Assembly: GCF_029233945.1 (NCBI RefSeq)
Contig: NZ_JARGOQ010000008.1
Location: 52,769-86,977 of the forward strand
Source: Sneathiella sp.
Lineage (GTDB): Bacteria > Pseudomonadota > Alphaproteobacteria > Sneathiellales > Sneathiellaceae
Direction: 5' to 3'
Length of the DNA: 34,209 nucleotides
Shown: positions 27,530 to 31,986 of the stretch, in pieces
Layout of the letters: every line of letters starts with the position of its first letter
Numbering within the stretch: position 1 is the stretch's first letter
The notes under the pieces: generated by a model
What the model saw: only the letters and a program-made list of their open reading frames with translations
Databases searched by the model: none
What the model was told of the DNA's origin: nothing
Position numbers and translations under genes: made by a program

Positions 27530-28318
27530 TTAAGGCGCATCATTTTCCGATAAATTCACCCCGGATTGAGAGGCGTAACGGCGACGGAGAGCGCCCAGCA
27601 TCCGCTCCCGCGCGGAGAGATGCATCTTGGGGTGATGCTCTCCCATGAACTTGCCGATGAAATAGCCGGTAAGCTCCAGCCCGCCGAGCATATCTGCCGT
27701 TGTTGCCTCCTCCGCCGCCTCCGGATCAAAGGAACGAGTCCTTAGAAAAGCAGGGAGCAGGAGCAGCTTGTCGTGGTAAGGCTGGCCCGCCGCCGCACTT
27801 ACCGCACGGCCGGATTTGGGGGAAACATAGATCAGGTCCTGCGTCACGCCCGTCGCCGCGCAATGGGTCAGGTCGAGACCATATCCGATTTCGCTCAAAA
27901 GCCCCAGCTCCCAACGTGCCAGCAGCAGCGGCCAGATCTCCGGCTGGTCGGCCAGCGCATCGAACAATAGCAGGGTTGCATCGAAAAGCGCACCATGCGC
28001 CTCCCGTTCCGGGAGGACAATATCCAGAAGCGCCAGCGCGGAACTTGCGCCAGCCAGCGCGTCCGGCGCATCGAACAGGGCACTCGCACGGGATTTCCTG
28101 AGTTCTACCGTGAAGGCGCCGAGCTGCTCCGAGAGGCGGCTCCGCCAGGCAAGATCGACCTCATTGCCCGGCTGCAAGATGCCGCGCAAGCGGCGGCCGA
28201 CACCGCCGCGCACCAGCCCGGCAGAGCGCCCCTGTTCGCGGGTAAAGGCATGAATAATCACGCTGTTTTCCCCATGTTTCCGGACACTGAGGATAAGACC
28301 GCTATCTTTCCATTGCAT
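27530..28318 (-). CDS. recO: DNA repair protein RecO
   Basis: A 262-residue protein of normal length. The N-terminal OB fold begins MQWKDSGLILSVRKHGENSVIIHAFTREQG and continues to GGVGRRLRGILQPGNEV, and the helical C-terminal region contains YVSPKSGRAVS and LLLLPAFLR. RecO anneals SSB-coated DNA and helps RecR load RecA in gap repair. Only one cysteine is visible, so the C4 zinc finger of some RecO proteins is absent, as in many proteobacteria. It leads the recO-parC group and diverges from the 105-residue gene. Confidence 0.93.
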   Translation of the reverse strand: MQWKDSGLILSVRKHGENSVIIHAFTREQGRSAGLVRGGVGRRLRGILQPGNEVDLAWRSRLSEQLGAFTVELRKSRASALFDAPDALAGASSALALLDIVLPEREAHGALFDATLLLFDALADQPEIWPLLLARWELGLLSEIGYGLDLTHCAATGVTQDLIYVSPKSGRAVSAAAGQPYHDKLLLLPAFLRTRSFDPEAAEEATTADMLGGLELTGYFIGKFMGEHHPKMHLSARERMLGALRRRYASQSGVNLSENDAP

Positions 28319-28428
28319 TTATCGAACCTATCAGATCACGCGGTTATTCCGAACAGAATTCGCACCGCTTTTTTCTCACAAGGCGGAGCGGCAATGCGTC
28401 CCATGGAAGACAAAAAGAGGAAGGAAGA

Positions 28429-28746
28429 ATGCCCTTGGAAGCCCATATCGCCCTGATCAGCACCATCAACGATAAAAATCTGCACTATGAGGCGCTGGAG
28501 ACCGAGGGCGCCGAATGGCTCACTCCCCCGCCGGATACCCTCACCCCGTTCAAATATCATCGCTGCCGATGCAGCGGGCCAACGTCAGGCTATCAGGTCG
28601 CGCTGAAATATGACGGGTTGATCTGCCGCATCGATGTGACGGCCTGGGGTATTTCCTACCGCAAATCAACACCCACCTATCATGATATGGAAATTATCCA
28701 GATCACTGACAATGCCCCTTATCGGTTGGAGATTGTGATGATCTAG
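28429..28746 (+). CDS. hypothetical protein, 105 residues
   Basis: I do not recognise this protein. It has a very good ribosome site (GAGGAAGGA just before the ATG), a codon use like its neighbours, and no signal peptide or membrane segment. Visible features are an acidic N-terminal half, a CRCSGPTSGYQVALKYDG segment with two cysteines, and a C-terminal strand pattern (DMEIIQITDNAPYRLEIVMI) that suggests a small beta-rich domain. It diverges from recO with a 110-base gap and is followed by the FNR-box gene. Function unknown. Confidence 0.65.
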   Translation: MPLEAHIALISTINDKNLHYEALETEGAEWLTPPPDTLTPFKYHRCRCSGPTSGYQVALKYDGLICRIDVTAWGISYRKSTPTYHDMEIIQITDNAPYRLEIVMI

Positions 28747-28793
28747 CCATCCGCCGAAGAATGCTGCATTCGCGAGACACATCGAATAACCCG

Positions 28794-28834
28794 TTGATTT
28801 AAATCAATGCTGCGGATGCGAAATTACCTAGATT
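28794..28834 (+). promoter_or_regulatory. FNR/FixK-type box with suitably spaced -10, promoter of the 38-residue protein
   Basis: TTGATTTAAATCAA (28794-28807) is a perfect match to the FNR/Anr/FixK consensus TTGAT-N4-ATCAA. TAGATT (28829-28834) would be the -10 and puts the transcription start near 28841, so the box is centred at about -40.5, the classical activating position. The leader would be about 37 bases and carries AAGGA. Oxygen-limited induction of the downstream gene is the expected outcome. Confidence 0.75.
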
Positions 28835-28877
28835 TCGCCGATAATTGCATTTCGTTGAGTATTTTAAGGATCATTTC

Positions 28878-28994
28878 ATGTCCGCTCGCAAACCCAAATC
28901 CCGTGCCGAGCTGAGCACTAAACTGCGCGAGGCCGCCTATATCTTCACTTTCCCGGTGCTGATGCTGATCTGGGCTGTCCAATCCTACACGTAA
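28878..28994 (+). CDS. small single-helix membrane protein, 38 residues
   Basis: The frame begins with ATG seven bases after AAGGA and encodes a basic N-terminus (SARKPKSRAELSTKLR) followed by a hydrophobic helix (YIFTFPVLMLIWAVQSY, residues 21-37) and a stop. The positive-inside rule predicts a cytoplasmic N-terminus and a C-terminus at the outer face. The perfect FNR box, ribosome site and the long hairpin after the stop make a complete small gene. It does not look like CydX, CcoQ or a light-harvesting peptide (no histidine). A role as accessory subunit of an oxygen-limited respiratory or transport complex is guesswork. Confidence 0.7.
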   Translation: MSARKPKSRAELSTKLREAAYIFTFPVLMLIWAVQSYT

Positions 28995-29043
28995 GATAGA
29001 GAAAATGCGGTCGCCTGCACGACCACATCCTGTCTTTCTATCT
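28994..29043. terminator. long imperfect stem-loop between the 38-residue gene and gatB
   Basis: An outer stem AGATAGA/TCTATCT (28994-29000, 29037-29043) and an inner stem ATGCGGTCG/CGACCACAT (29005-29013, 29020-29028, one C-A mismatch) flank the loop CCTGCA. It starts at the last base of the stop codon of the small gene and ends seven bases before the gatB stop, so it probably terminates or protects transcripts from both sides. There is no clear T-run. Confidence 0.5.
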
Positions 29044-29050
29044 CATCGAA

Positions 29051-30505
29051 TTACCCGTCGAGCTTGGGCCGCATGATTTCGGTCACCACGCCGGGGTTCG
29101 CCTTCCCTTGCGTCGCTTTCATCACCTGCCCCATGAAGAAGCCGAAAAGCTTGTCCTTGCCACCACGATATTCCGCGACCTTGTCCGGGTTGGCGGCTAT
29201 CACGTCGTCAATCGCGGCCTCGATCGCGCCAGTATCAGAAACCTGTTTCAGGCCCTTTTCCTCGACAATGTCGCCTGCCGCCTTGCCGGTATCGAACATT
29301 TCCTCGAAGACCTCTTTCGCGATCCGGTTGGAGATCGTGCCGTCCTTGATCAGATCGATGAGTTCGCCGAGTGCCTTCGCCGCAACCGGGCTGTCCGAAA
29401 GATCTTTCCCCGTCCGGTTGAGATTGCCGAACAACTCGCCGATCACCCAGTTTGCCGCGAGCTTGGCATCGCGCCCCTCGGCCACCGCCTCGAAATAATC
29501 GGCCACCTCTTTTTCCGTGACCAGCACGCCCGCATCATAGGCAGAAAGGCCGAGTTCACTGATAAAGCGCGCTTTTTTATCGTCCGGCAGTTCGGGAAGT
29601 GTTTCACGAATGCGGGCAATAAAGGCCCCGTCGAATTCGAGCGGGAGCAAGTCCGGGTCGGGGAAATAACGGTAGTCATGCGCCTCTTCCTTGGAGCGCA
29701 GGGACCGGGTCTCCCCCTTATCCGGATCATAGAGCCGGGTTTCCTGATCGACCGTGCCGCCCGCCTCGATAATATCAACCTGGCGGTTGGCTTCATAGAT
29801 AATCGCCTGCTGCATGAAGCGCACGGAGTTGATGTTCTTCATCTCGCAGCGCGTACCAAACTCATCGCCCGGTTTGCGCACGGACACATTGACATCGGCG
29901 CGCATGGAGCCCTCGTCCATATTCCCGTCACATGTCCCAAGATAACGCACGATACTGCGTATTTTCTTCACATAGGCCGCCGCTTCCTCGGGCGAGCGCA
30001 TATCTGGCTCGGACACAATTTCCATCAACGGCACGCCGGAACGGTTAAGATCGACGAACGTCTGGCTCGGATGCTGATCATGCAGGCTTTTGCCCGCGTC
30101 CTGCTCCAGATGCAGGCGGGTAATGCCGATTTCCCGCGTCTCCCCGTCTTTCAGGTCAATGATGATCTTCCCCTCCCCGACGATCGGCTGCAAGAACTGG
30201 CTGATCTGGTAGCCCTGCGGAAGATCGGCGTAGAAATAGTTCTTGCGATCGAAGACAGAAAACTCGTTGATCTTGGCGTTAAGGCCGAGACCGGTGCGCA
30301 CCGCCTGCTCGACCGCCATCTCGTTGATCACGGGAAGCATGCCCGGCATCGCCGCATCAACGAAGGAGACCTGGCTGTTCGGCTCCGCGCCGTAAGCGGC
30401 GGACGCACCCGAAAAAAGCTTCGACTTGCTGGTCACCTGCGCATGGATTTCAAGGCCGATCACGACCTCCCAATCCCCGGTGGCACCCTGAATAATCATT
30501 CCCAT
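29051..30505 (-). CDS. gatB: aspartyl/glutamyl-tRNA amidotransferase subunit B
   Basis: About 484 residues from the ATG at 30505, two bases after the gatA stop; GGAGGGG lies about seven bases upstream. The kinase-like domain starts [12 protein letters not shown], with [16 protein letters not shown], the [18 protein letters not shown] segment and [13 protein letters not shown]. The C-terminal helical and YqeY-type tail (about 335-480) ends [19 protein letters not shown], the tRNA-binding region. With GatA and GatC it amidates Glu-tRNA(Gln) and/or Asp-tRNA(Asn), supplying Gln- or Asn-tRNA for translation. The presence of the full set suggests that one of the corresponding synthetases is missing or non-discriminating. 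Confidence 0.96.
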
Positions 30506-30507
30506 CG

Positions 30508-31986
30508 TTATCCCCTCCACCAGTCGGTCGGCGTCGCGGTAAAGGCGGCGGCTTCTTCCAGAACACCACCCACGCGGAACACGGTTTCCTCATCGAACGG
30601 ACGCCCGAGCAGTTGCAGACCAAGCGGCAGGCCGTCTTTCGAGAGGCCCGCCGGCACCGAAATGCCGGGAAGCCCGGCAAGGCTTGCCGGGACCGTGAAG
30701 ACGTCATTGAGATACATCGCCAGCGGATCATCCCCCTTCTCGCCAAAGCCAAAGGCGGCGGACGGCGCGGTCGGGGTCAGGATCGCATCAACGTTAAGAT
30801 AGGCCTGCTTGAAATCCTCGGCGATGCGCGCGCGGACTTTCTGCGCCTTCAGGTAATAGGCGTCGTAATATCCGGCGGACAGCGCATAGGTGCCGATCAG
30901 CAGGCGGCGCTTCACCTCGGCACCGAAGCCTTCGGCGCGGGTGCTGGCGTACATATCATTGAGGTCTTTCCCCTCGACCCGGAGGCCATAGCGCACCCCG
31001 TCATAGCGCGCGAGGTTGGAGGACGCCTCCGCCGGCGCAATGATATAATAGGCGGGCAGTGCGTATTTCGTATGTGGCAGACTGATATCGACAATCTCCG
31101 CCCCGGCGTCTTTCATCCAGTCGATACCCTGCTGCCAGAGCGAGCTGATTTCATCGCTCATGCCATCGATACGGTATTCCTTCGGGATACCGATTTTCAG
31201 GCCCTTGATATCGCCGGTCATGGCATCCTCGAAATTCGGGACCGGCATATTGACGCTGGTGCTGTCTTTCGCATCGAACCCGGCCATGGCTTCCAGCATG
31301 ATCGCGGTATCGCGTACGCTGCGGGCCATCGGCCCCGGCTGATCGAGGCTGGACGCAAAGGCCACCACGCCCCAGCGCGAACAGCGCCCATACGTCGGCT
31401 TCATGCCGACAATGCCGGTGAAGGAGGCGGGCTGACGGATCGATCCGCCGGTGTCCGTCCCCGTCGCGCCCATGGCGCTGAATGACGCGACCGCACTTGC
31501 CGAACCACCGGAGGAACCCCCCGGCACCAGGTCGCGGTTGTCGCCTTCGCGTCGCCAGGGATTGACCACATTGCCGTAATAGCTGGTCTCGTTGGAGGAC
31601 CCCATGGCGAATTCGTCGAGATTGGCCTTGCCGAGCATCACCGCGCCCTCATCCCAAAGATTAGACGTCACCGTGCTTTCATAATGCGGCGTGAAACCAT
31701 CGAGAATATGCGAGGCTGCGGTGGTCAGAACGCCCTTCGTGCAAAAAAGATCCTTGATGGCGAGCGGGATGCCCTCAAGCTTGCCCGCCTCCCCTTTTGC
31801 GCGGCGCGCATCGGACGCCGTCGCGGCATCGACCGCCTGATCCGGCGTTTCGGTGATAAAGGCGTTCAGCGGCTTGGAGGCCGTCATCGCCGTGATATGG
31901 GCGGCGGTCAGTTCGCGCGCCGAAAAATCCCCGGCGTCGAGGCCGTCGCGCGCCTCCGCGATTGTCATCCTGGTCAGGTCACTCAT
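30508..31986 (-). CDS. gatA: aspartyl/glutamyl-tRNA amidotransferase subunit A
   Basis: A 492-residue amidase-signature enzyme that releases ammonia from glutamine for GatB. The catalytic triad is Lys78 (IPLAIKDLF), the cis-serine Ser158 in VPGGSSGGS, and the nucleophile Ser182 in [10 protein letters not shown], spaced as in S. aureus GatA for the two serines. Downstream are [16 protein letters not shown] and the C-terminal [10 protein letters not shown]. Its ATG shares a base with the gatC stop (TAATG), and gatB starts two bases after its own stop, so the three subunits are translated together. Confidence 0.97.

Follow-up and report, generated by a model that had tools for sequence, protein, structure and literature searches.

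In our best explanation, a 38-codon frame of Sneathiella is a small membrane protein gene with a promoter of its own, and its product is a single-helix accessory protein of an inner-membrane partner, which would be activated by FNR, repressed most likely by PhaR, and used at low oxygen when polyhydroxybutyrate (PHB) is present. We put the probability of this reading at roughly one half. Comparison of related genomes supports the gene itself and coding selection on it, a conserved putative FNR box, a conserved second element directly behind that box, and a conserved face on the predicted helix.

Locus and gene parts

The window, that is, the whole stretch of 34,209 nucleotides that was analysed, is part of a 3.6-Mb Sneathiella assembly. 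The features relevant here are as follows.

27530-28318, minus strand, recO, left neighbour of the peptide gene
28429-28746, plus strand, a 105-aa frame, left neighbour of the peptide gene
28762..28775, plus strand, second element, upstream copy TGCTGCATTCGCGA, at a spacing of exactly 46 bp from the downstream one
28794..28807, plus strand, FNR/FixK box TTGATTTAAATCAA, read from the sequence, with an orthologous box in 20/20 intact loci
28808..28821, plus strand, second element, downstream copy TGCTGCGGATGCGA, immediately behind the FNR box, resembling a PhaR site whose spacer has 4 bp and not 3
28829..28834, plus strand, predicted -10 hexamer TAGATT, read from the sequence, with partial conservation at +35/+37/+40 from the box start
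28866..28870, plus strand, ribosome-binding site AAGGA, from the sequence and the comparison of loci
28878..28994, plus strand, 38-codon gene of the single-helix membrane peptide, ATG at 28878, stop codon ending at 28994
29002..29031, minus strand, hairpin resembling a terminator, in the gap where the peptide gene and gatB converge
29051-30520, minus strand, gatB, right neighbour, convergent to the peptide gene

A first-pass annotation, made from the letters of this DNA, had described a perfect FNR/FixK box, a -10 hexamer, a ribosome-binding site and a small frame; all of these are present in the sequence, the -10 at class II distance from the box. The layout of the gene suggests a transcript of its own. 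The encoded peptide is MSARKPKSRAELSTKLREAAYIFTFPVLMLIWAVQSYT. An upstream in-frame TTG, which would give 49 residues, was considered as the start and set aside in favour of the ATG, which has the better ribosome site and the better fit to the alignment. The 105-aa frame to the left is kept at the same place in many relatives, and has no match in Pfam or NCBIfam.

The small frame is a gene

The 38-codon frame is almost certainly a real coding gene. A single-protein query gave matches in 27 of 60 genomes at E<=1, its own genome included. With profile A1, whose 20 rows are the intact members, a homolog was detected in 21 of the 24 genomes of the genus set (E<=3.7e-7), 20 copies being intact and one truncated; among the same 24, G008 yielded no homolog, and G019 (E 0.17) and G022 (E 0.98) yielded noise only. 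The cultured strains S. chungangensis KCTC 32476 and S. chinensis LMG 23452 are among the carriers of a homolog. Stops or frameshifts in homologous loci had been named beforehand as evidence against the gene. The frame is open in 20 of the 21 copies, and the one departure is the truncated copy of G017, in a 56%-complete assembly, where the leader and the N-terminal part are gone and the FNR box and second element are still present.

All 20 intact copies share a neighbourhood. A convergent gatB lies within the fetched flank in 17 of them; in G013 the contig stops just past the peptide gene, with its two left neighbours, recO and the 105-aa frame, where expected; in G006 and G011 these two lie 2-4 kb upstream and gatB is absent from the fetched flank.

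The peptide gene is under strong purifying selection. Over a 22-codon core, pN is 0.27 against a pS of 0.74 (190 pairs, 20 intact copies), and dN/dS is below 1 in every one of the 91 computable pairs, with a median of 0.22, the other pairs being saturated. Residues P26, W32, A33 and S36 are invariant across the aligned copies. A functional RNA was weighed as the product and rejected: minor fractions by codon position are 0.24/0.15/0.47, and there is no Rfam match in 28300-29200, which together favour a protein.

Searches beyond the genus, which a distant homolog of 38 residues could escape, gave no convincing match. G024, from the one other genus of the order that was searched, gave a match at E 0.03 within a 378-aa frame, and 385 genomes of the class gave, besides five members of the genus, 11 genomes with matches at E 0.0198-0.0948, none of them convincing.

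FNR box and promoter geometry

The first-pass annotation had asked whether frame and FNR box are conserved together. They are: each of the 20 intact loci carries a box 66-91 bp upstream of the start, scoring 10/10 in 16 loci, 9/10 in three and 8/10 in one. If transcription starts 7 bp past the -10 hexamer, the box is centred at about -40.5/-41, in keeping with the position near -41.5 that is usual for FNR/FixK sites. From base composition, the exact form TTGATNNNNATCAA is expected about 0.01 times in the window. Allowing up to one mismatch to the box gives two window matches against 1.08 expected; since this is near expectation, only the exact match is informative. Genome-wide, TTGAYNNNNRTCAA occurs at 20 places in the Sneathiella assembly, compared with three for the reversed control. 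A generic sigma-70 scan found no promoter here, which is unsurprising if the place of the -35 is taken by an activator site. At box positions +35/+37/+40, T/A/T occur in 12, 13 and 14 of the 20 loci, respectively, which lends the -10 hexamer partial support.

Of the other 19 places in the same genome, those with neighbours checked against Pfam adjoin genes for a COX1-family oxidase, a HemN-type protein, an MFS transporter, SCP2, U32 and hemerythrin proteins, and also a PHA synthase (phaC) and two phasin-like genes, one of which falls below the curated cut-off. Six of the 19 lie well within frames and look like chance occurrences. Among the proteins of this genome is a Crp/Fnr regulator that has Cys at 39, 42, 50, 133 and 138 (numbering starts at the first in-frame Met) and ETVSR in its recognition helix, a combination that marks it as a predicted oxygen-sensing regulator. 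Control of the peptide gene by a Crp/FNR-type protein acting through the box is very probable, with FNR itself as the predicted ligand of the site. Two more Crp/Fnr proteins without the N-terminal Cys cluster of FNR are encoded at L180 and L182; one of these genes stands beside an NnrS-like frame (by eye), the other beside an MFS gene with FNR boxes.

A second element abuts the box

The promoter had previously been read as an oxygen box. That reading is partly supported; what it missed is a second, PhaR-like element directly behind the box. In 15 of the 20 intact loci, a sequence of the form TGYTGCnnnYGYGA follows the FNR box at a fixed offset. The 28-base composite of box and element, allowing up to one mismatch, is found once per genome in 16 of the 24 genomes, and its reversed control in none. 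Six of the 20 loci (G000, G001, G002, G003, G016 and G018) have an extra copy of the element 46 bp upstream.

The exact element is missing from five of the 20 loci, among which G006 differs by one base. In G010 and G020, the canonical PhaR 12-mer TGCRNYGCASMA stands, exact, beside the FNR box; its background is two occurrences in 130,005 bases, the phaC locus included, or about 0.002 per 134 bp. G007 and G013 carry neither the element nor a canonical PhaR site, G013 keeping a degenerate version as judged by eye. Within 60 bp of the box, the PhaR consensus (TGCRNYGCASMA or YGCRNYGCR) is absent from the window and from 18 of the 20 loci, being present in G010 and G020. The second element spaces its GC pairs by N4, compared with N3 in the PhaR consensus, that is, by one extra base, and this N4 element is found at none of the 19 other FNR boxes of the genome.

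Sites of the pattern YTGCANNTGCGAA are far more frequent across the genus than the control, 175 in the 24 genomes versus 24 for the reversed pattern, and are probably those of a global regulator. Of 21 such sites examined, in 20 regions of three genomes (G012, G018 and G003), some stand before genes for branched-chain permeases (in two genomes), for Cys/Met metabolism (also in two), for a Vut_1 protein and for a thiolase at the phaR locus; at least eight of the 21 lie within long frames. This spread weakens the PhaR reading, since genes other than those for PHB have the element too. Given the N4 spacing, another regulator for the second element is possible.

A probable link to PhaR and PHB

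Published PhaR sites, as given in the available parts of the cited papers, are TGCRNYGCASMA (PMC6201568), YGCRNYGCR (PMC12542648), and TG[N]TGC[N]3GCAA, with CTGC[N]3GCAG in Rhodobacter sphaeroides (PMC3206438); an exception to the N3 spacing is the 'long PhaR box' of 22 bases, which has been predicted for two promoters of Bradyrhizobium. The same partly available sources describe PhaR in other species as a repressor of granule proteins (PMC12542648, PMC6201568) that is off the DNA once PHB granules form (PMC12542648).

A phaR gene (PF07879 above cut-off) was detected in 22 of the 24 genus genomes, that of the window included. G019 and G022 have phaR and no detectable peptide gene; in the G008 assembly neither was detected. 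A PHA synthase gene was matched at E<=1e-150 in seven of the 24 genomes, and in all seven (L194-L200) an FNR box is followed by YGCRNYGCR at +17 upstream of that gene, the copy of the window's own genome lying on L127 near 17214. The +17 register is that of the TGC in the peptide element, the seven genomes being related and not independent. We regard the phaC site as a predicted composite operator for low oxygen and PHB. Furthermore, among the 19 genomes that have phaR and a complete listing of sites, seven (G005, G006, G009, G012, G015, G019 and G023) carry a YTGCANNTGCGAA site at a distance of about 1.6 kb from that gene, in G012 just upstream of the thiolase gene; these may be one inherited site.

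The G010 and G020 sites, the phaC composite and the phaR-proximal sites tie the second element to PhaR, and on balance we lean towards PhaR as its predicted regulator, which would then have to bind a longer-spaced site than the published ones. With this composite promoter, and with a similar composite at phaC, PHB and carbon storage are indicated as much as oxygen.

The peptide and its conserved face

Across the genus, the peptide follows the consensus K-E-A-A-x-I-F-x-F-P-x-x-M-L-I-W-A-V-x-S-Y. A basic N-terminus and one hydrophobic helix had been described from the single sequence. The former is confirmed, the N-terminal 18 residues carrying +6/-2 charges and residues 19-38 none; a helix is likewise predicted, AlphaFold2 on A1 giving a single one over residues 8-37 (pLDDT 81.5), but its hydrophobicity is marginal for a membrane span, with a top 19-residue Kyte-Doolittle mean of 1.54. 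By the positive-inside rule, the basic N-terminus makes an N-inside topology likely. As a kind, the peptide fits the small single-helix membrane proteins: it is shorter than 50 residues, is under coding selection and has a predicted helix, albeit one of marginal hydrophobicity.

The single-sequence description of the helix had not brought out that its conserved residues are confined to one face. The helical moment of conservation peaks at 100 degrees, with only 5 of 20000 shuffles giving one as large, and the conserved stripe runs along I22, F25/P26, M29, W32/A33 and S36/Y37. Such a pattern suggests a protein-protein interface, by which the helix would contact either a specific partner or another copy of itself. 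Tentatively, at slightly less than even odds, we assign the peptide the role of an accessory or tuning subunit; a terminal oxidase or a transporter, as suggested in the first-pass annotation, may be what it tunes.

It had been remarked that the protein resembles no known small subunit, and the searches agree: the peptide belongs to a family without a significant match in Pfam, NCBIfam or PDB. The window protein gave weak RecX_HTH1 and MBDa matches in Pfam and none in NCBIfam, and the PDB search returned no match. For the 20 members, neither Pfam nor NCBIfam gave a hit to the CydX, CcoQ, CcoS, PufX or NapE models at E up to 10, in searches whose HMMER filters discard most matches above about 0.1. 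PetN was matched by three of 20 members in Pfam (best E 0.027) and four of 20 in NCBIfam (best E 0.013), and S-Me-THD_C weakly by one, all at chance level. NapE, which has an FP motif, was weighed on that account and rejected, there being no match in the family models. The phasin families, too, were matched by none of the 20 members.

Proposed mechanism

We propose that FNR would bind the box at low oxygen and, with the geometry of a class II site, activate transcription. The abutting element and, in some species, also the copy 46 bp upstream would be occupied by another DNA-binding protein, for which PhaR is the likeliest candidate. Since the element lies between the box and the -10 hexamer, a repressor bound there would block the polymerase. 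PHB granules would draw PhaR off the DNA and lift the repression, so that the promoter would act as an AND gate: full expression of the gene would need both low oxygen and PHB.

The product would insert into the inner membrane, with the basic N-terminus presumably inside, and the face formed by I22, F25, P26, M29, W32, A33, S36 and Y37 would pack against another membrane helix. In this way, the peptide could join a membrane complex, in an accessory or tuning role, under oxygen-limited, carbon-storing conditions. PHB is a sink for carbon and electrons under oxygen shortage.

A bolder version of this proposal is speculative and, in our judgement, doubtful. There, the peptide would found a new family of single-helix regulators under an FNR-PhaR AND gate, its W-A-x-x-S-Y face would dock on an inner-membrane redox enzyme and direct electron flow between respiration and PHB, and the composite operator, with a 3-bp or 4-bp spacer, would be reused at phaC.

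Alternative explanations

It is possible, though we consider it unlikely, that oxygen alone is what the gene responds to. The peptide would then be a subunit of an FNR-regulated respiratory enzyme such as a cbb3 oxidase, and the element would either belong to an unrelated regulator or extend the FNR/RNA polymerase contact. The known oxidase small subunits are single helices, and one FNR box of the genome lies between genes of the HemN type and the COX1 family. The N4 spacing of the element also departs from that of PhaR in the available published descriptions. However, the N4 form of the element is at 0/19 of the other FNR boxes of the genome, and in G010 and G020 the box has a canonical PhaR site as its neighbour. 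The element moreover recurs away from FNR boxes, for instance before the thiolase gene at the phaR locus, and the peptide has no similarity to the CydX, CcoQ and CcoS families.

Alternatively, the peptide may belong to the PHB granule, its helix lying in the granule surface or tethering the granule to the inner membrane, as a minimal phasin-like factor. The promoter architecture of FNR and PhaR-like sites common to phaC speaks for this, as do the FNR boxes by two phasin-like genes and the repression of granule proteins by PhaR elsewhere, described in the available parts of PMC12542648 and PMC6201568. We nevertheless find it improbable. No phasin family matches any of the 20 members, a single conserved face with W, S and Y suggests a specific protein contact and not a polymer surface, and the peptide occurs in 21 of 24 genomes, compared with seven of 24 for an FNR-linked phaC.

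The box could also serve regulators of the NnrR/DNR type, which respond to nitric oxide or nitrate, in place of FNR. Other Crp/Fnr proteins of the genome lack the Cys cluster, one of them being encoded beside the NnrS-like frame mentioned above, and the NnrR consensus TTG-N8-CAAA, as it appears in the available part of PMC5596199, may overlap a FixK box. Against this stand the full TTGAT-N4-ATCAA, the FNR/FixK form, in 16 of 20 loci, and the FNR protein with its Cys cluster in the same genome; we hold the idea to be quite improbable. Finally, a hydrophobic peptide like the type I toxins, made at low oxygen, is very unlikely: toxins of this type are comparable in size and hydrophobicity, but the peptide gene is a single orthologous locus with its neighbourhood kept in 20/20 intact cases, is under strong purifying selection, and has no Rfam match in 28300-29200, a search that covers Rfam families and would pass over an antisense RNA outside them.

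Relation to known systems

The main reading, an FNR-activated and probably PhaR-repressed accessory peptide, has counterparts for its parts. CydX, CcoQ, CcoS and NapE are of similar size, with one helix each, and several are FNR-linked. The peptide differs from them in having no sequence similarity to them and in its neighbours, recO, the 105-aa frame and gatB, which form no respiratory operon. The weak matches of a few members to the single helix of PetN, a subunit of the cytochrome b6f complex, have chance-level scores; to our knowledge, b6f is not expected in the group of Sneathiella.

Promoters repressed by PhaR/AniA/PhbF, such as those of phaP1, phaP2, phaP4 and others in Sinorhizobium, Bradyrhizobium and Herbaspirillum (PMC12542648, PMC6201568, PMC3206438), have, in the portions of these papers that are available, TGC-rich sites near the core promoter, as here. 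Sometimes two copies bracket the -35, and the TG[N]TGC prefix of TG[N]TGC[N]3GCAA is common to the Sneathiella element. The predicted Sneathiella site differs in that it abuts an FNR box, mostly has a 4-bp spacer and ends in GCGA.

In Bradyrhizobium diazoefficiens, regulation by oxygen and by PHB meets in PhaR and FixK2 (PMC10888616, PMC6201568), and in Sinorhizobium an Fnr-type motif is tied to PHB mutants (PMC5596199); as far as the available text of these sources goes, the link runs via fixK2 expression or is indirect. In Sneathiella, by contrast, both sites appear to share one promoter. Among the literature listed by the searches there was no report of the peptide gene, and in the available parts PhaR and FixK/FNR were linked via fixK2 or indirectly, with no abutting sites.

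A promoter with both kinds of site side by side would offer a single-promoter test of the coupling between oxygen and granule sensing, with the peptide as a candidate membrane effector of that coupling. The peptide itself adds a family without a significant match in Pfam or NCBIfam.

Further observations at the locus

In some genomes a His/Pro/Tyr-rich frame of about 190-330 aa separates the peptide gene from gatB (L050, L053) or stands near gatB (G008, G020 and G022); its copies are at L050:6214-6849, L053:6210-6803, L130:35-796, L132:449-1444 and L133:3018-3587. Four copies, that of L133 left out, were scanned and gave no Pfam family above cut-off. As an obligate operon partner of the peptide gene the frame was rejected, there being no room for it at this place in the window and G008 and G022, which yielded no peptide gene, having it by gatB. 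G001 has, next to its intact locus, a partial extra copy of the peptide gene that is fused to a 59-codon piece of gatB (C12:859096-859306, L131), a relic of duplication or recombination.
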